Shown here in pieces: positions 40,501 to 47,788 of a stretch of DNA of 64,000 nt. Source of the DNA: Salinicola salarius. GTDB taxonomy: Bacteria > Pseudomonadota > Gammaproteobacteria > Pseudomonadales > Halomonadaceae. The notes below the pieces were generated by a model. It made no database searches, had not been told where the DNA came from, and saw nothing but the letters and a program-made list of their open reading frames with translations. Each line of letters begins with the position of its first letter. Within the stretch, counting starts at the first letter, position 1. The position numbers and the translations under genes were made by a program. Location: NCBI RefSeq assembly GCF_003206135.1, contig NZ_PZJT01000006.1:131250-195249 (forward strand). The letters run 5' to 3'.

Positions 40501-41753
40501 GGCAGCCCAGGTTCGAAGGCTTGAATCCTAGCATCGAGCGTTGCCTCGGCATTACCGGCCGTGCGCAGCTGGATATCCAGATCGTCGAGCGTGCCCTTGG
40601 CATCGAGTGTCATCGTCTGGCCGTAGAACGGCGCGCGGGTTACCCGCCCTTGCAGTGATAGCGCAAGCGGAATCTCCCCCTCGAGCTCGGCACTGGCGGC
40701 AAGCTCGGCATGGCCATCCGGTGCATCCAGCATCAGCCGCTGGATCTCGATCCTGCGATCGATGGCGGAGAAAGAGAGCGCCAGTCGGTTCAACCGTTGC
40801 GGATTCGGACCTTCGAGGCTGACGTCACTGATCGTCACGCTCGGCGCGTCGACTTCCAGCGGCAACTGGAGATCGGGCAACTCCTCGCGAAGCGCTGCGA
40901 GACTCCGCTCGATCCTTTCGACACGGGCGTCGGTTCGGTCGGAGTCTGCCTCGGCGACGTTGACGGCAGCGGCCAGCGTCAGCGGCGTCAATGCCATCGG
41001 CACGAGGTTGTCGGGAAGCGTGTCGGGAAGCGCTGCAGGCGGCGTGTCGGTAATCGAGGCCGGTGGCAGCGTCGCGTTGTCGCCGGCAGCATTGACGGCG
41101 ACCGAGGCATCGATGGCATCCGGACTGAGAACGCCAGTGCCGAGATCGGGCATGGCGAGCGTCTGGCCCGGACTCTCAGGCAGTTGAATGCGGGTCTGGT
41201 CGAGCGTCGTGGGCAACAGTTTCAGATGGTTGCCGGACATTTCGGCACCCGTCTGGAAGTGCTGCCAATGGATATCGGTGCCATCGGCCAGCCGAATGCC
41301 GACGTCGTCAAGACGAACCTGGCGAATCTCGATAGGCAGCGGAACGGCAATCGACGGCATGCCGCCGCCCTCTTCCTTTGCGGGCGTCGGCGGAGGCTGG
41401 GAATCGCTCTCGCCCAGTCGAATGCGGGCGCCGGTGATGCTCAGATCGTCGAGACACACGCGGCCCCTGAGCAGGCAGTCGTCGGCCCAGGCAAGGTGGA
41501 AACTGTCCACGGCGAGATCCAGCGTCCCGGCGGACAGGCGTAGCCCCTCGATGGTCAGTTCATCGAGCGGTGCACCCTCGAAACGCTGCGCCTCGACCCA
41601 GCCGCGCGACTGGGCCTGCTCGAAAAGCCACTGGCTGCCCCAGGGCGACAGACCCAGCCCGGCGAGTGTCAGAATCAGGCCCAGCAGCCACAGGACCAGG
41701 AACAGCAGCAGCCGAATCAGAATTCCGGTCCGATGGAGAAATGGAGACGCCAA
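37581..41753 (-). CDS. tamB: translocation and assembly module subunit TamB
   Basis: Large inner-membrane-anchored periplasmic bridge of the AsmA/VPS13-like family. It partners TamA in outer-membrane protein insertion and also moves phospholipid to the outer membrane. 1390 aa: an N-terminal helix (RLLLFLVLWLLGLILTLAGL, about 14-35), a long beta-taco body, and the conserved C-terminal DUF490 domain (about 1050-1390, with QLYGDVNLVDGTYTSFGQDL). It overlaps the 3' end of tamA by 37 bases, which suggests tight coupling. Confidence 0.94.
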   Translation of the reverse strand: MASPFLHRTGILIRLLLFLVLWLLGLILTLAGLGLSPWGSQWLFEQAQSRGWVEAQRFEGAPLDELTIEGLRLSAGTLDLAVDSFHLAWADDCLLRGRVCLDDLSITGARIRLGESDSQPPPTPAKEEGGGMPSIAVPLPIEIRQVRLDDVGIRLADGTDIHWQHFQTGAEMSGNHLKLLPTTLDQTRIQLPESPGQTLAMPDLGTGVLSPDAIDASVAVNAAGDNATLPPASITDTPPAALPDTLPDNLVPMALTPLTLAAAVNVAEADSDRTDARVERIERSLAALREELPDLQLPLEVDAPSVTISDVSLEGPNPQRLNRLALSFSAIDRRIEIQRLMLDAPDGHAELAASAELEGEIPLALSLQGRVTRAPFYGQTMTLDAKGTLDDLDIQLRTAGNAEATLDARIQAFEPGLPFSVNLNADRLRWPLASRPFAPFTDLDDGLDEAAILAARKLQDVQAIEQTAPQYQLDHLALNVDGTLANYRADLDLAGQGAGLPPATLTLAGKGDLDHFAWQPMQVASQGGKLESQGTVRWAPALSASVHLDFQQLPLGAFSQTLTGQLNGQTQAAFAMRDDGGWQLAVPRLAIDGRLQQRALSLHAQVDGNSEMQWNIRELDLRQGDNRITASGRVDRNLDIEGRIDAPALGTILPDLSGALSGRFQGRGTLERPQIAVDLQGRGVGYAENRLEQLALKADSTGTQDPQFDVDLTASGIQTAGQQIRSVELDLAGRLSQHQLSLDVSGGEGLPVSQASIRLQGGLDSAFQHYQGVFSRLTASTDYGDIGLRDSLNFSANLANASATISPFCLDRQQGGALCLTERMNASAAQGRAALSIDELPMALLNDFMPDAWQIDGQTNGDIVANWSRGGQAWAANADIESDVTVSGVDARGAPWQVPAATISLSLDADQQRARTQLDLQLEDAGRIRLLARIDDPAGDGTLEGRLQMSDLRFSPYRPLVAGIDQLEGAINGDVALGGTLAMPALNGDITIDGVQVKGGVSPVAITDAQLSLALQGQSSTLQGFVQSDEGRLDLSGDANWQDPANWRANVNIDGTESPLMVAMPAYGRLRVAPDLQIHAMPQRLQVRGDVSIPWARLEIGQIPSSAQAPSSDTVIITEEEDRQQQAAAAARQNEEGAGTAQALADAGMQLDVRVNLHLGPDMQLEAYGLEAGLTGELQVRQGTGPVQLYGDVNLVDGTYTSFGQDLIIRQGQVLFSGPASQPSLQFEAIRNPDTTEDDVIAGLRVTGSASSPRLTIFSEPAMTESRALSYILRGRAPEDTGSGDDALTSALIGLSLSQTGSAVGQVGQAFGVQDLSLDASGSGDDSQVVVSGYVFDDLKVSYGVGIFSPIAELTLRYRLIQNLYLQAVSGAAQAVDLIYTFSLGRASDT

Positions 41754-43558
41754 GAGTCCTCCTCGTCGTCAAACGGATGGGCGATATCGAAACGGATCGG
41801 CCCGACGGGTGAGATCCAGCGTACGCCGACGCCAGCGCCGGTCTTGAGTTCGTCCGGCCACCATTCGTCGAACGCGTTGCCCGTATCGACGAACGTGGCG
41901 CTCCAGAAGTTGCCGGTCAGGTGGCGTTGATACTCGATGCTGCTGGTCAGCATGTGTTGACCACCGAGAAGCTCGCCGTCCTCGTTCTCGGGCGAAAGAC
42001 TCTCGTAGGAGTATCCGCGAATGCTCTGGTCGCCCCCGGCGAAGAAGCGCAGCGATGGCGGGACCTTGTCGAAGGTATTGGTGGCCATGGCACCGCCACC
42101 GATACGGCCGACGAAACGGTTCTCGCTGCCGAGCATTCTCACCCACTGGGAATCGAAGGTGGTCCGCACGAAGCGAGCATCCGATCCCCAGGCCGGGTCC
42201 GACCATTCCAGTGTCAACTGCTGCCTGTCGCCCCAGCTCGGGAAGGTCTGGTTGCGCTTGCGAGTGCGCGACCAGCTGATGCCGGGATAGAGCAGCAGTA
42301 CGGCATCGTCCTGGTCGGCCTGGGTAAAGTTCTCGTAGGTGGTCTGCCAGTAGAGATCCTGCGCCCAACCATTGGAGAATTCCCAGTGACGTGCCATCTG
42401 GACCGAACTCTCGAAGCTCTTGGTGTCCTCGTTATCGATGTTCTTGAGGCCGTAGCGAACGCGATAACTGTCTCTCAGCGGGTTCTCGAGCGGAATCGTG
42501 TATTCTCCCGAGAAGCGCTGTTCGGGCGCGGAAAGATACAGCGAGTTGGTCAGGCTGTGACCGTAGCGATTCAGCCAGGGTATGGTCCAGGAGAACTGGG
42601 TGCGCGGCCCCACGTCGGTGGCGTAACCCACACCGACCTCGAACTGATGGCGATCCGCCGGGGTCAGCTCCACATCGACAGGCACGACCGTGGGTCGGCT
42701 ATCGGTTATTTCCCTGGCCACGTTCAAGCCCGGCCCACCCAGCACTGAATCGGGGTCGGCAGTCGTGTCGCGGCCGGTCGCCTCGCGCCACCACTGGCTG
42801 GGCGCGGCCGGCAATGCCTCTTCATTGACGCGTGGCCGTACCGCCACGCCACTGAACCAGTTGGTCTGCCCCAGATTCTGGTTGAGCGTGGCCAGATCGC
42901 CGGCGAGGTAGGGTTCTCCCGGCTCGAACGGGACCATGTTCTTCAAGCGGTGCTGCTGGATCTGACTGCCTCGAAAATGGACATGCCCGAATCGGTAGCG
43001 TTGGCCGCTGTCGAAGTCGAGAAAGATGCGGGCGCTGTTCTCCCAGGGGCGGACTTCGATACGCTGCTGACGAAAGCGCGAATTGAAATAGCCTCGTTCC
43101 AGTGCCAGCGTCGACAGCCTGCCCTTGAAGCCGTCATAGCGGGAGTGCAACAACGGATCGCCGACCTTGAGCGGGTTCGACTGCATCGCGCTTTCGAACG
43201 CCGCATCGTCTTTGGCATCGCCCTCGAGTGACACGTCGACCTGCGTGATTTCGGTACGCTCGCCCGGCTCGATATCGATGACGACGCGCTCGTTGTCTTC
43301 ATCGGGATAGCGAGTGGCGAGTTCGGCATTGTAGTAGCCAAATGCCTGGAGGGCCTGCTCGGCCCGGTTTCTCACCACGCCATCCAGGCGTTCGCGAGTG
43401 GATTGGCTGTCGGCCTCGAGCTCGGAAAGAATGTTGACGACATTGTCCGCAGGCGCCCCGCTCAATCCGTGCACGGTGACGTCCAGTGCCCAGACGTGCC
43501 CCGCGACAGGCAGCCCGAGGCAGATCAGTCCCATCCCTAGGACCTTGGCTTGAAACAT
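41717..43558 (-). CDS. tamA: translocation and assembly module subunit TamA
   Basis: Omp85-family outer-membrane barrel. 613 aa from the ATG at 43558, giving a signal peptide ending near GHVWA-LDV (about residue 24). Three POTRA domains (about 25-270) are followed by the 16-strand barrel with the conserved lid-lock region FFAGGDQSIRGYSYESLSP (about 525) and the C-terminal beta signal ending in FSIGPEF. Relative to E. coli TamA it carries an extra loop between POTRA3 and the barrel (PAAPSQWWREATGRDTTADP). It lies between the coiled-coil gene (4 bp upstream) and tamB. Confidence 0.95.
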   Translation of the reverse strand: MFQAKVLGMGLICLGLPVAGHVWALDVTVHGLSGAPADNVVNILSELEADSQSTRERLDGVVRNRAEQALQAFGYYNAELATRYPDEDNERVVIDIEPGERTEITQVDVSLEGDAKDDAAFESAMQSNPLKVGDPLLHSRYDGFKGRLSTLALERGYFNSRFRQQRIEVRPWENSARIFLDFDSGQRYRFGHVHFRGSQIQQHRLKNMVPFEPGEPYLAGDLATLNQNLGQTNWFSGVAVRPRVNEEALPAAPSQWWREATGRDTTADPDSVLGGPGLNVAREITDSRPTVVPVDVELTPADRHQFEVGVGYATDVGPRTQFSWTIPWLNRYGHSLTNSLYLSAPEQRFSGEYTIPLENPLRDSYRVRYGLKNIDNEDTKSFESSVQMARHWEFSNGWAQDLYWQTTYENFTQADQDDAVLLLYPGISWSRTRKRNQTFPSWGDRQQLTLEWSDPAWGSDARFVRTTFDSQWVRMLGSENRFVGRIGGGAMATNTFDKVPPSLRFFAGGDQSIRGYSYESLSPENEDGELLGGQHMLTSSIEYQRHLTGNFWSATFVDTGNAFDEWWPDELKTGAGVGVRWISPVGPIRFDIAHPFDDEEDSWRLHFSIGPEF

Positions 43559-43562
43559 CGAC

Positions 43563-44588
43563 TCAACCTCCGCCGCGCTGTAGATCAGAGACATTGGTAA
43601 TCAGCGAGGCGACACGTCGCGTCAGCTGGGCGCGACTGGCCTCGAGTGATCCCAGTCTTTCTTTGAGTTCGCGAATCTGAGAGGCGCTGACCCCGGCGGG
43701 CAGATCATCGACGCGTGACTGCAAGGATTCGAGACTGGCATTGAGAGCGGTTTGCCCCTGCCGAAGTTCCGTCAGCGAGCTGCGAATCTGTTCCAACTCG
43801 TCCGTGGACGGTGTCTCCTGCTGCGAGAGCGTATCGACGCGTTTCTCGAGCGTCGTCAGCGTAGATTGCAGGTCCGTCAGCGTGGCTTGAGTATCCGAGC
43901 CCTCGATCTCTTCGAGCTGCTTCGAGAGCGCCTGCTGATCCTGACGCAGCGTATCGAGCGAGGCGACGAACTGGTCCGATCGCTCTTGGCCGGTCTGTTC
44001 CAGCCGATCCAGAGCGTCGTTCACGGCGGTGATACGCTCATCCTGCTGCTGTTGGCCGCCTTCGAGCGTGGTCAGCCTCGCCGACAGCGCGCCGCGTTCG
44101 TTCTCGCCGGTACTTTCGAGCGCCGTGAACGAGGATTGCAGCGTCGCGATCAAATCACGCAGCTCCTGATCAGTATGCTGGAGCGATTCGAGTTGCTGTG
44201 CGGTCTGGTCATCCTCTCGAGACTTCGCTACCCGGGTTTCCAGACTGCCTACTGCCGCTCGGGTCGCCTCGAACTGATCGCGCAAGCGATCGAACTCGGC
44301 ACGCAGACTTTCCCCGGAAGCGTCCAATGTCGAACCAGTCGCATCCAGGCGCTGATTGAGCTTGGCGATCTGGGCATCCTGCGCCTGCAGCCTCTGCCAG
44401 AGTTGCCAGCCTCCTGCCCCCGCCCCGGCGATCAACAGCAGAATGAAACACCATAATGGCCACACTTTGGGCGGGCGCCGCCCGGGAGATCCCTGGTAAT
44501 GGCGCGCACCCGTTCGGGGTGTCGCCATGTCGCTGCGATCGGGCACGATGGTCGGGGGGGCGCGATGCTCGTCGGATTGTGATGGCAT
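43563..44588 (-). CDS. membrane-anchored coiled-coil protein of unknown function, co-transcribed with tamAB
   Basis: 341 aa from an ATG at 44588; a TTG 21 bases upstream is the only longer start. A basic, proline-containing cytoplasmic N-terminus (about 1-40) is followed by one hydrophobic helix (VWPLWCFILLLIAGAGAGGW, about 42-61). Then comes about 270 residues of nearly unbroken coiled coil with leucine heptads and Q/E/S/T spacing. No enzymatic motif is present. The topology suggests an inner-membrane anchor with a periplasmic rod. The stop is 4 bp before tamA, so it is the first gene of a three-gene operon. I do not recognise a named family; a spacer or accessory role for the TamAB bridge is an inference. 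Confidence 0.85.
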   Translation of the reverse strand: MPSQSDEHRAPPTIVPDRSDMATPRTGARHYQGSPGRRPPKVWPLWCFILLLIAGAGAGGWQLWQRLQAQDAQIAKLNQRLDATGSTLDASGESLRAEFDRLRDQFEATRAAVGSLETRVAKSREDDQTAQQLESLQHTDQELRDLIATLQSSFTALESTGENERGALSARLTTLEGGQQQQDERITAVNDALDRLEQTGQERSDQFVASLDTLRQDQQALSKQLEEIEGSDTQATLTDLQSTLTTLEKRVDTLSQQETPSTDELEQIRSSLTELRQGQTALNASLESLQSRVDDLPAGVSASQIRELKERLGSLEASRAQLTRRVASLITNVSDLQRGGG

Positions 44589-44940
44589 TGACGTCGTATA
44601 CCTTGCCAATAGTGATGCTGTCGCTGATGAAACGGGCGATGTCTCGGCCTCCGCGGGTGCGGATACCGGAAATCGTCTCGCCGGCCACCTACTCGGCCAC
44701 CTGCTTTCGGCGTCATCACGCCAGAGGAATCAGCGTCGGAAGCCGGCCTCGAACGGCCGAAGGATTACGTTACGTGAAAGCCGTGACGAAGCCTAGGCTT
44801 GGCAACGCAAGGGTCGCATGATAACAGCCGCGGTGAAGATATAGGCATCGAATTGGGATCTCGGCCGGGTTCGCGGTAGCATGCCCGCGACCTGCCCTCG
44901 CCCGATCCGGCTTGTGTCTACTGCCAACCGTCTTCCAACC
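44589..44940. other. divergent intergenic region between the coiled-coil-tamAB operon and the SOD-like gene
   Basis: About 350 bp. Must contain both promoters, but no clear -35/-10 pair, palindrome or conserved operator stood out. Frames within it lack start context and look like chance. The SOD-like frame is open from 44881, with candidate starts at 44881, 44941 and 44956. Confidence 0.4.
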
Positions 44941-45540
44941 ATGTCGATGAGTACGATGTCTCACCTCGCGTCCCGATTCGAATTACCCGCACTTCCGTTC
45001 GAGCGCCATTCGCTGGAGCCAGAAGTGTCCAGAGCCCAGGTCGATCTGCTCTATAGCCATCATCATCGCCGTCACATCGACGCCCTCAATGCGCGACAGT
45101 CGCCCGATGACGATCTCTCCCTGGCCGCACTGGCGAACACGGATGACGGAACCGTGCGCCATCATGCCCAGGAAGCCTGGAACCTGGTGTTCTTCTGGCA
45201 TGGACTGAGCGCGCGTAGCGTGGAAGTGCCCGGCGCACTGGCCCGGCGGATCGATGCCGCCTTTGGCGGCATGGGGGCGCTGCAATATCGGTGGCGAGCC
45301 CAGATCGATGCCAGCGAGGCCGGGTGGTCCTGGTTGGTGATCGATGCTGAGAACCTGCTGCAACTGACGACATCGGCGCCGGGGCGATTCCCTGTCGGAA
45401 CGATCCCGTTACTGGCGATCACGCTGGCCGAAGACGCCTATCGAATCGACCATCGAGGTCGACGAGGAGAGTATTTCGATGCGCTATGGCCGCATTTGAA
45501 CTGGGAATACGCGCAGCTCAATAGCGAAGTGACCGAATGA
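44941..45540 (+). CDS. Fe/Mn superoxide dismutase homologue lacking all metal ligands (pseudoenzyme)
   Basis: 199 aa from 44941 (44956 also possible). The chain aligns without gaps to Fe-SOD at both ends: FELPALPFERHSLEPEVS at the N-terminus, then EAGWSWLV and PLLAITLAEDAYRID toward the C-terminus. All four metal ligands are replaced: first His by Leu37 (LLYSHHHRRH for EYHYGKHHQTY), second His by Leu82 (WNLVFFW for WNHTFYW), Asp by Thr161 and last His by Asp165 (ITLAEDAY for VDVWEHAY). The gateway Tyr is His45. The fold is probably retained but dismutation is not expected. The frame is clean, so the gene seems maintained. No obvious operon partner; function unknown. Confidence 0.88.
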   Translation: MSMSTMSHLASRFELPALPFERHSLEPEVSRAQVDLLYSHHHRRHIDALNARQSPDDDLSLAALANTDDGTVRHHAQEAWNLVFFWHGLSARSVEVPGALARRIDAAFGGMGALQYRWRAQIDASEAGWSWLVIDAENLLQLTTSAPGRFPVGTIPLLAITLAEDAYRIDHRGRRGEYFDALWPHLNWEYAQLNSEVTE

Positions 45541-45615
45541 GCGCTGGCCGGGCTGGCCAGCGCGGGTTTGAATGCCGCGCAACCCAAAGGGCCGGGCATG
45601 AAACGTCAAAAGACC

Positions 45616-46896
45616 CTAGGCCCGCCGTCCGATACCGCGATAGACGAAGCCTCGCGAGGCGACATAGGCCGGATCGTAGATATTGCGGCCATCCAGGATC
45701 AGCGGCGTGTTGAGCGCCTGCAGCAGGCGTCGCCAGTCCGGGTTCCAGTAACACTTCCACTCGGTCACCAGCATCAGGGCATCGGCGCCTTCGCAGGCGC
45801 TGTAGAAGTCGCCCTCGCACAACGTCAGCTGCGGGTGATCGGGATAAAGCTGGCCCAGCGCATGCAACGCTGCCGGGTCGTGTACCTTGACCGTGACACC
45901 TTGCGCCCACAACGCTTCCAGCAGCGTCAGCACGGGCGCATGATCGATCCGAGCGGTCCCCGGCTTGAACGCCGCCCCCCAGATCGTGACGGTACGACCT
46001 TCGAGTTCGCCTTTGAAATGGTTCCAGAGCTTGCGGAACAGCGTCTCTTTCTTGCTTTCGTTGATGTCGAGGACATGCTCGAGCAAGTGAGACTCACGCC
46101 CCGTCGAATGCTGGACATCGGCCAGACGCATCAGGTCGCGAGAGAAATTGGGTCCACCAAAACCGCAACCGGGGTAGAGATATTCGAAACCGATTCGCGT
46201 ATCGGCCCCCATCCCCTGACGCACATATTCGACATCCACCCCGAGCGAATCGGCCAGACCGGCCAGCTCGTTCATGAAGCTGATACGCGTGGCCAGCATG
46301 CCGTTGATGGCTAGCTTGGTCAGTTCCGCGGCGCGACGAGGCATCAACTGGAACACTTCGTGACGCCGATTGAATGCGCGCAGCAGTTCGCGAATCTGCT
46401 GGGTGCCCCACTCTTCCTCGCTGCCCAGCAACCAGTGCGCCGGGCGCGTGAACGTCTCCCATGCGCGCCCTTCCTCGATACGGTCCGGTAGCGCGACGGC
46501 TACCTGCCCGGAGTGCCCCAGCAGTGCCTCGAGCTTCTCCGTCTGCCCTACGGGGAAGGTGGAATTGTTGACGACGACCAAGGGCGTGCTCTGACGCCCC
46601 GGCACCTGCCTGACGTAACTCTCGGCGGCTTCACGCTGATCCGGCGACAGGGCCAGCCAGTGAACGTCCGCGTCGGTATCGGCGGGCACTTCTTCGACGA
46701 TCACCAATTGACCGGAATTCTGGCCTGCCAGAATCTGATCCTTGAGTCCCGGCTCGCTGATCACCCAGTCGGCATTGGCCAGACTTTCCCAGGGGAAATC
46801 GGCATGCGGCATCCAGGTAACCTGATGCCCGACCGAGCATAATGCGGCTGCGGCAGTCGCCGCGGCCAGTTCGCTACCATGTACGACCACCCGCAT
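45616..46896 (-). CDS. UDP-glucose 6-dehydrogenase homologue with missing catalytic cysteine
   Basis: 426 aa, the length and domain order of UDP-glucose dehydrogenase: N-terminal Rossmann domain, central dimer helix (ELTKLAINGMLATRISFMNE, close to the family sequence) and C-terminal UDP-binding domain (TVTIWGAAFKPGTARID). Two essentials are gone. The NAD loop GxGxxG is HGSELAAAT. The catalytic motif GGSCFPKD is GGPNFSRD, with Asn (about residue 250) for Cys and Arg for Lys. Oxidation to UDP-glucuronate is therefore unlikely. The frame is intact and starts 4 bp after galU, so it is expressed with the enzyme that makes UDP-glucose. A regulatory or sugar-nucleotide-binding role is inferred. Confidence 0.85.
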   Translation of the reverse strand: MRVVVHGSELAAATAAAALCSVGHQVTWMPHADFPWESLANADWVISEPGLKDQILAGQNSGQLVIVEEVPADTDADVHWLALSPDQREAAESYVRQVPGRQSTPLVVVNNSTFPVGQTEKLEALLGHSGQVAVALPDRIEEGRAWETFTRPAHWLLGSEEEWGTQQIRELLRAFNRRHEVFQLMPRRAAELTKLAINGMLATRISFMNELAGLADSLGVDVEYVRQGMGADTRIGFEYLYPGCGFGGPNFSRDLMRLADVQHSTGRESHLLEHVLDINESKKETLFRKLWNHFKGELEGRTVTIWGAAFKPGTARIDHAPVLTLLEALWAQGVTVKVHDPAALHALGQLYPDHPQLTLCEGDFYSACEGADALMLVTEWKCYWNPDWRRLLQALNTPLILDGRNIYDPAYVASRGFVYRGIGRRA

Positions 46897-46900
46897 CGCT

Positions 46901-47788
46901 TCAGTCCTCGGCCGCGTATTGTTTGATCAATTGACGGAAGCCTTCACCCAGCGTCGGGTGCTTGCGCCCCAGCGCCAGTGTCGCCTCGAGATAACCGAGC
47001 TGACTGCCGCAATCGTAGGTCTGACCCTGCATGCGATAGGCGGCCGCGCCGCTGTTCTTGCGCAGCGTCTCGATGGCATCGGTCAACTGGATTTCATTGC
47101 CTGCACCGGGCGGTGTTTCGGCCAGAATCGGGAAGATCTCGCCCGGCAGCAGATAACGACCAATGACGGCCAGCGTCGACGGTGCCTCTTCGACCTTGGG
47201 CTTCTCGACCATGCCCGTCAACGGTGCGCTCTCGCCAGCAGCCGGCTCATCGCCTTCCAGCGCCACAATACCGTACTTGTAGGTCAATTCTTTCGGTACG
47301 GTCTCGACCATGATCTGGGCCTTGCCGGTCTCATCGTAGGCTTTGATCATGCCGGTGAGATCGTTGCTGTCCATGCCGTCATCGTCGATGACGACATCCG
47401 GCAACAGCACCGCGAACGGGTCATTGCCAATGACCGGGCGTGCACAGAGGATGGCATGACCCAGACCGAGCGCCTCGGGTTGGCGCACGCTGATGATATT
47501 GACGTCGTCCGGAATGATGTTGCGAAGTTCTTCGAGGAGTTCGTCCTTGCCCTTGGCTTCCAGCTGTGTCTCGAGCTCGAAATGCTTGTCGAAATGGTTT
47601 TCGATGGCGCTCTTCGAAGAGTGCGTCACCAGCACGATTTCCTTGATGCCTGCCTTTACCGCCTCGGAGACGACATACTGAATCACCGGTTTGTCGACGA
47701 TCGTGATCATCTCCTTGGGAATCGCCTTGGAGGCGGGCAGACAACGTGTGCCGAATCCGGCGACGGGCAGTACGGCCTTGCGAATCAT
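46901..47788 (-). CDS. galU: UTP-glucose-1-phosphate uridylyltransferase
   Basis: Makes UDP-glucose from glucose-1-phosphate and UTP. 295 aa, the standard GalU length, with the nucleotide-binding N-terminus KAVLPVAGFGTRCLPASKAI, PKEMITIVDKPVIQYVV, the sugar-binding EALGLGHAILCA and FAVLLPDVVID, and MVEKPKVEEAPS. Product UDP-glucose feeds glycans, lipopolysaccharide and glucosylated osmolytes. It is the first gene of a two-gene operon with the dehydrogenase homologue. Confidence 0.96.
   Translation of the reverse strand: MIRKAVLPVAGFGTRCLPASKAIPKEMITIVDKPVIQYVVSEAVKAGIKEIVLVTHSSKSAIENHFDKHFELETQLEAKGKDELLEELRNIIPDDVNIISVRQPEALGLGHAILCARPVIGNDPFAVLLPDVVIDDDGMDSNDLTGMIKAYDETGKAQIMVETVPKELTYKYGIVALEGDEPAAGESAPLTGMVEKPKVEEAPSTLAVIGRYLLPGEIFPILAETPPGAGNEIQLTDAIETLRKNSGAAAYRMQGQTYDCGSQLGYLEATLALGRKHPTLGEGFRQLIKQYAAED

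Follow-up and report, generated by a model that had tools for sequence, protein, structure and literature searches.

All four metal ligands of iron superoxide dismutase (Fe-SOD) are replaced in a protein of Salinicola salarius, encoded at 44941..45540 on the forward strand of the window (the whole 64,000-nucleotide stretch of DNA that was analysed). This protein, pseudo-SOD, shows the features by which a pseudoenzyme is recognised: the catalytic residues are lost from the sequence, the SOD fold is kept in the predicted model, and selection has been maintained. The reading that we consider fairly probable is that the sodB of this locus has turned into a metal-free SOD-fold pseudoenzyme with a binding or scaffold role, kept after SodA took over dismutation.

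Translation of 44941-45537 is clean and yields 199 aa, in line with the intact reading frame reported in the preliminary description. A start at Met 44956 (194 aa) is probably likelier than one at 44941; judged by eye, it is the start commonest across orthologues. A good Shine-Dalgarno site was not seen by eye upstream of this Met in S. salarius, and a promoter and terminator consensus scan of 44550-45700 returned none of either, where chance would give about 0.5 of each. Both Pfam domains pass their curated cut-offs (Sod_Fe_C with 54.2 bits against 20.9, Sod_Fe_N with 42.7 bits against 27), so a Pfam-based annotation would label the protein superoxide dismutase. Among NCBIfam models the SodB-type Fe-SOD ranked first at 104.5 bits, under its cut-off of 348, followed by two Mn-SOD models at 58.4 and 51.8. 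At the level of sequence, pseudo-SOD is confirmed as a SodB-type Fe-SOD homologue. It shares with SodB (SodFM; Sod_Fe_N + Sod_Fe_C) homology over the whole length, the same predicted fold and a locus at which many family members carry an intact sodB, and is unlike it in that all four ligands, Tyr34 and Gln69 are replaced.

The ligand positions were read from an alignment of 179 SOD sequences with E. coli SodB as the reference; its ligands are presumably numbered H26, H73, D156 and H160. In this alignment (all positions on the forward strand) the first ligand His26 is replaced by Leu37 (45049..45051), the second, His73, by Leu82 (45184..45186), the third, Asp156, by Thr161 (45421..45423) and the fourth, His160, by Asp165 (45433..45435), while the gateway Tyr34 is His45 (45073..45075). 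These are the same four ligand replacements and the same Tyr to His change that had been described before. The alignment to Fe-SOD, then said to be free of gaps across the ligand regions, is so around the ligand motifs, but between the motifs there are short gaps relative to SodB. Further differences from SodB are E78 for Gln69, A163 for Trp158 and R168 for Tyr163. Such a protein would bind neither Fe nor Mn and would not dismutate superoxide. Its SOD fold would be an apo form in which the old metal pocket is filled by side chains, with Leu37 and Leu82 probably packing it.

The replacements are a property of the genus. All 18 Salinicola genomes, the window genome included, contain an orthologue with an open frame, and the other 17 proteins are 46-94% identical to that of the window. 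None of the 18 proteins, that of the window among them, keeps any of the four ligands, which answers whether the substitutions are shared by relatives. Position 26 is Leu in all 18, position 73 is Leu in 14 and Met in 4, position 156 is Thr, Ala, Ser or Pro, and position 160 is always Asp or Glu. Tyr34 is gone from all 18, Gln69 is retained in 4 (Glu in the window protein), and the Tyr163 position is Arg in 17. Among 11 related contig loci, nine recorded as Salinicola match pseudo-SOD at 49-94%; the remaining two (L044, L045) are from outside the genus and have intact ligand motifs, by eye, in the part read. With the ligands replaced in assemblies of 18 species and nine matching records named Salinicola, the chance that a sequencing or assembly artefact accounts for the substitutions is negligible.

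Fe-SOD dimers are bridged by Glu159-His160'. The residues for this bridge were not found in Salinicola; every orthologue has Asp or Glu at position 160, so the bridge cannot form as such. One may guess from the residues present that a new Arg-acid contact spans the pseudo-SOD dimer.

A canonical sod gene was sought elsewhere in the genome, as the preliminary description had proposed, and was found. The window genome has one other Fe/Mn SOD besides pseudo-SOD, and each of the 18 Salinicola genomes has at least one further SOD match. The 12 further copies that were read (12 Salinicola genomes) are all of SodA type with H,H,D,H and the Tyr present. Between the SodA of the window genome and those of ten other Salinicola genomes identity is 94-99.5%; set against the 46-94% of pseudo-SOD, this means that the constraint on pseudo-SOD is partial. 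SodA may have made the dismutase function of sodB dispensable. The genome G003 is the sole Salinicola genome with three SOD matches, and its locus L023 encodes a SodA-type SOD with all ligands that shares 57.9% identity with the SodA of the window genome.

A search of 275 Halomonadaceae genomes with a Salinicola profile gave matches at 1e-24 in 186. The census comprises the 18 Salinicola loci, 155 of the 168 other matching loci (the remaining 13 genomes were left out because their loci were not fetched) and six loci from a second search, 179 sequences altogether. The second search covered 80 of the 89 unmatched genomes and led to 30 loci; five ligand-lost and one intact sequence entered the census, and the other 24 loci were SodA-type with ligands. 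L104 and L105, which have a SodA-like look, are among the 179. The H,H,D,H set is kept in 143 sequences; in the other 36 (18 from Salinicola, 18 from other genera) one or more ligands are missing. In an order-wide profile search (390 genomes) the best match outside Salinicola reached 1.1e-44, versus 2e-101 or better inside the genus, and at 12 loci read outside Halomonadaceae the ligand motifs were intact, by eye.

The manner of loss differs between lineages. His26 became Leu or Arg and His73 became Leu, Met or Phe, two sequences (L097, L184) show partial ligand loss, and several ligand-lost groups outside Salinicola are without much of the loop that bears the last two ligands. Tyr34 is changed in all 36 ligand-lost sequences versus 15 of the 143 ligand-intact ones, and all 15 adjoin ugd. 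The gateway Tyr34 may thus have tended to be lost first. Two Halomonadaceae sequences (L064, L114) keep the four ligands, have Cys for Tyr34 and carry the arm motif RHSLEP common to Salinicola proteins; by sequence they look like intermediates. Three others keep their ligands but have His (L111, L183) or Arg (L216) where Trp158 is conserved in the last motif, and judging by this residue their SOD activity is doubtful. The ligand-lost copy L224 (genome G113) is in two pieces in different frames, owing to decay or to an assembly error. In the Halomonadaceae genomes G199 and G222 all SOD matches are split in two, pointing to SOD genes that are broken or misassembled.

The order tamA - coiled-coil gene - sodB - ugd - galU is widespread in Halomonadaceae. 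In the window, tamA (41717..43594, reverse strand; Omp85 and TamA POTRA domains) and the coiled-coil protein gene cc348 (43563..44609, reverse strand, divergent from pseudo-SOD, with an N-terminal hydrophobic stretch) lie on one side of pseudo-SOD. On the other side are the UDP-glucose dehydrogenase gene ugd (45616..46896, reverse strand, convergent with pseudo-SOD) and a gene at 46901..47788 (reverse strand), which we take to be galU on reading its translation. The ugd gene adjoins 34 of the 36 ligand-lost sequences; at L101 a short contig carries tamA and the coiled-coil gene, and L184 is without any of these neighbours. Of the 143 ligand-intact sequences, 101 adjoin ugd, 7 have tamA or the coiled-coil gene alone, and 35 have none of these neighbours in the fetched stretch. 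From the 89 unmatched genomes 20 sodB-less ones were picked by hand, and two (L284, L285) were excluded as having only a distant Ugd paralogue. The 18 readable loci (L266-L283) lack sodB cleanly: ugd is followed by tamA with no SOD match, the two genes are close together on one strand, and BLAST places the coiled-coil gene between them in 13. Elsewhere sodB separates ugd from the coiled-coil gene and lies on the opposite strand to them. These clean absences mean that sodB can be lost altogether, and for Salinicola to have kept it with no metal site calls for another role. A second, non-dismutase role may be what selection kept.

The preliminary description held that pseudo-SOD has lost catalysis selectively and is not decaying, and the substitution pattern supports this. 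Thirteen Salinicola pairs gave dN/dS of 0.12-0.30, which speaks against plain decay, and replacement changes were rarer than silent ones in the 7 Salinicola pairs tested (Fisher p <= 0.0011). Decay had been expected to show itself as ligand-intact orthologues in close relatives combined with a high dN/dS. The former are present, in the genus g5, which adjoins Salinicola on the Ugd tree, and in most family members read, but the latter is absent. As these intact orthologues occupy the same locus, the ligand loss in Salinicola is derived. The gene nonetheless evolves faster than ugd, for which dN/dS is 0.011-0.038.

Slow decay in its strict form would mean that, with SodA present, sodB is functionless and drifting, and that its frame has simply not broken yet. 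We regard this as unlikely for Salinicola, where the median dN/dS is 0.217 (21 pairs with dS 0.15-1.0, not independent), compared with 0.139 for ligand-intact sodB with Tyr34 kept and ugd adjoining (1914 pairs, likewise not independent), and where all 18 frames are open and codons 12-27 are unchanged at the amino-acid level across 13 close pairs (dS 0.234). Some facts would suit drift. Every ligand-lost genome that was checked also had a second SOD, both the 18 Salinicola genomes and the 18 others, which all have another full-scoring SOD match in a PF02777 search of 80 family genomes; in the same search 12 of 62 intact-sodB genomes had a single SOD (counts not corrected for kinship). Ligand-lost sequences outside Salinicola have a median dN/dS of 0.493 (58 non-independent pairs), the value is already 0.300 in ligand-intact sodB with Tyr34 changed (12 non-independent pairs), L224 is frame-broken (it was omitted from the medians), and sodB is missing from 18 loci. 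Under this weaker selection some of the ligand-lost copies outside Salinicola may be on their way out.

In pseudo-SOD selection bears most heavily on the N-terminal arm and first helix. Codons 12-52 (44974..45096, forward strand) are the most constrained part, with a dN/dS of 0.042 versus 0.262 in codons 53-199. Fourfold sites mismatch equally in both parts (1357/2670, or 0.508, in codons 12-52 versus 3383/6644, or 0.509, in codons 53-199), and the constraint therefore acts on the peptide; an overlapping RNA or DNA signal was considered as the source of the conserved block and ruled out on this ground. No Rfam family was found in 43000-47000 and no tRNA in the 64-kb window. Comparison with the consensus of 135 intact sodB sequences identified 22 invariant Salinicola residues that differ from it, 12 of them within positions 20-43. 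Since selection acts there, the arm and helix 1 would be the likely contact surface of a metal-free binding or scaffold protein, and pseudo-SOD may work inside a complex.

Conserved histidines bring up another possibility, that pseudo-SOD is a different metalloprotein or enzyme in which new ligands bind a metal or cofactor at another place in the fold. H23, H42 and H87 are invariant in all 18 Salinicola orthologues (H40 is nearly so), and the intact-sodB consensus lacks H23. Among pseudoenzymes in general there are known cases in which catalytic residues have migrated (PMC10211241). However, H42 and H87 also belong to the intact-sodB consensus and so are inherited, and 11 of the 18 ligand-lost sequences from other genera have Gln at the H42 position. 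A relocated metal site is accordingly quite improbable, and the metal-free binding or scaffold protein remains the preferred reading.

Structure prediction agrees with the homology. An AlphaFold2 model built from ten Salinicola sequences has the SOD fold (pLDDT 79.7, pTM 0.78); its first 30 residues are of low confidence (blocks of pLDDT 52-59), although conservation is highest in the arm. All of the best 50 Foldseek rows were Fe/Mn SODs. The comparison with SodB that had been suggested gave a TM of 0.84 to E. coli Fe-SOD (1isa_A), with a VIA-align Z of 22.9. Similar VIA-align values were obtained with a Trypanosoma brucei mitoribosomal small-subunit chain (6hiw_Cq, Z 22.2) and with chains of the plastid RNA polymerase complex (7bjk_A, Z 21.9; 8w9z_G, Z 21.8). 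Fold likeness by itself shows no function.

These structures nevertheless include SOD folds at work in large assemblies. The Fe-SODs of the plastid RNA polymerase complex (7bjk_A, 8w9z_G) are part of a large complex, but they are plant plastid proteins and keep the metal site, unlike pseudo-SOD. The yeast mitoribosomal proteins mS42 and mS43 have the SOD fold and, like 6hiw_Cq of T. brucei, use it in a structural role, as is proposed here; they are eukaryotic ribosome subunits, whereas the Salinicola protein is not known to associate with the ribosome. A viral pseudodismutase working by binding is found in Leporipoxvirus, whose SOD homologues have the Cu,Zn-type fold, unrelated to that of pseudo-SOD. 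Passages on these systems describe mS42/mS43 as a heterodimer acting at the rRNA 3' end in the mitoribosome (PMC8998825, PMC9892005) and the Leporipoxvirus Cu,Zn-SOD homologues as inert decoys for the copper chaperone (PMC10211241). In the relevant passages of a survey of 3,011 genomes the four SodFM ligands are stated to be universally conserved (PMC10172142), and the open-licence literature searched yielded no account of a bacterial Fe/Mn SOD lacking its ligands. Pseudo-SOD would thus be a known kind of protein, a pseudoenzyme, in the bacterial branch of a family where none was found described: a whole bacterial genus has a SodFM member that lacks all four ligands and is under purifying selection. 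Related lineages show stages from the intact enzyme through Tyr34 loss to loss of the ligands and the ligand loop. They offer a natural series for an ancient metalloenzyme becoming a metal-free protein, in which non-dismutase roles of SOD become testable.

The number of losses was estimated on a tree of Ugd. The SOD gene tree was set aside as a counter because of its long branches. The Ugd tree (one gene, FastTree) has 127 rows, 34 of them ligand-lost; L101 and L184 are absent from it because they have no ugd. The ligand state changes five times, and four ligand-lost clades of at least two members have supports of 97-99. The fifth case, L097, is separated from a group of 11 by a node with a support of only 17, so four changes are possible. 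Ten intact loci of genus g5 adjoin Salinicola (support 92).

Repeated ligand loss, as this tree depicts it, is to be weighed against a single origin, in which a metal-less SOD arose once and spread through Halomonadaceae, replacing the resident gene at the ugd locus. A quick SOD tree does unite 33 of the 36 ligand-lost sequences (support 71), but in a more careful one (55 rows, active-site columns removed) the groups are unjoined and the branches long. In AU tests on the 55 rows, a single clade of the 18 ligand-lost rows was weakly rejected (p-AU 0.029); the same clade without L097, i.e. with 17 of the 36 ligand-lost sequences, was not (p-AU 0.275), and neither were four groupings like those of the Ugd tree (p-AU 0.08-0.21). 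The Ugd tree puts the 34 loci in five places, the replacements differ among the groups, and partial losses exist in L097 and L184. On these sequence comparisons we favour repeated loss over one origin, which we consider rather unlikely. A wider proposal can be put forward tentatively: SodB of Halomonadaceae may have a conserved metal-independent second function, the metal site may have been lost several times once SodA provided cover, and Salinicola may represent the settled metal-free form, acting through the arm and helix 1.

Operon logic was tried as a clue to function and rejected, as the same neighbours also flank intact sodB and also stand together without sodB. The neighbours of pseudo-SOD are ancestral and give no specific functional hint. 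The Pfam matches of cc348 are mostly weak and coiled-coil-like, with one, FlaC_arch, over its cut-off. This gene evolves nearly as fast as pseudo-SOD (dN/dS 0.09-0.18 in 8 pairs) and keeps its place in much of the family. At three loci (L078, L082, L095) the SOD frame ends in GSARRPMPR, which by eye resembles the 3' end of ugd on the opposite strand; the convergent sodB and ugd would therefore overlap there.
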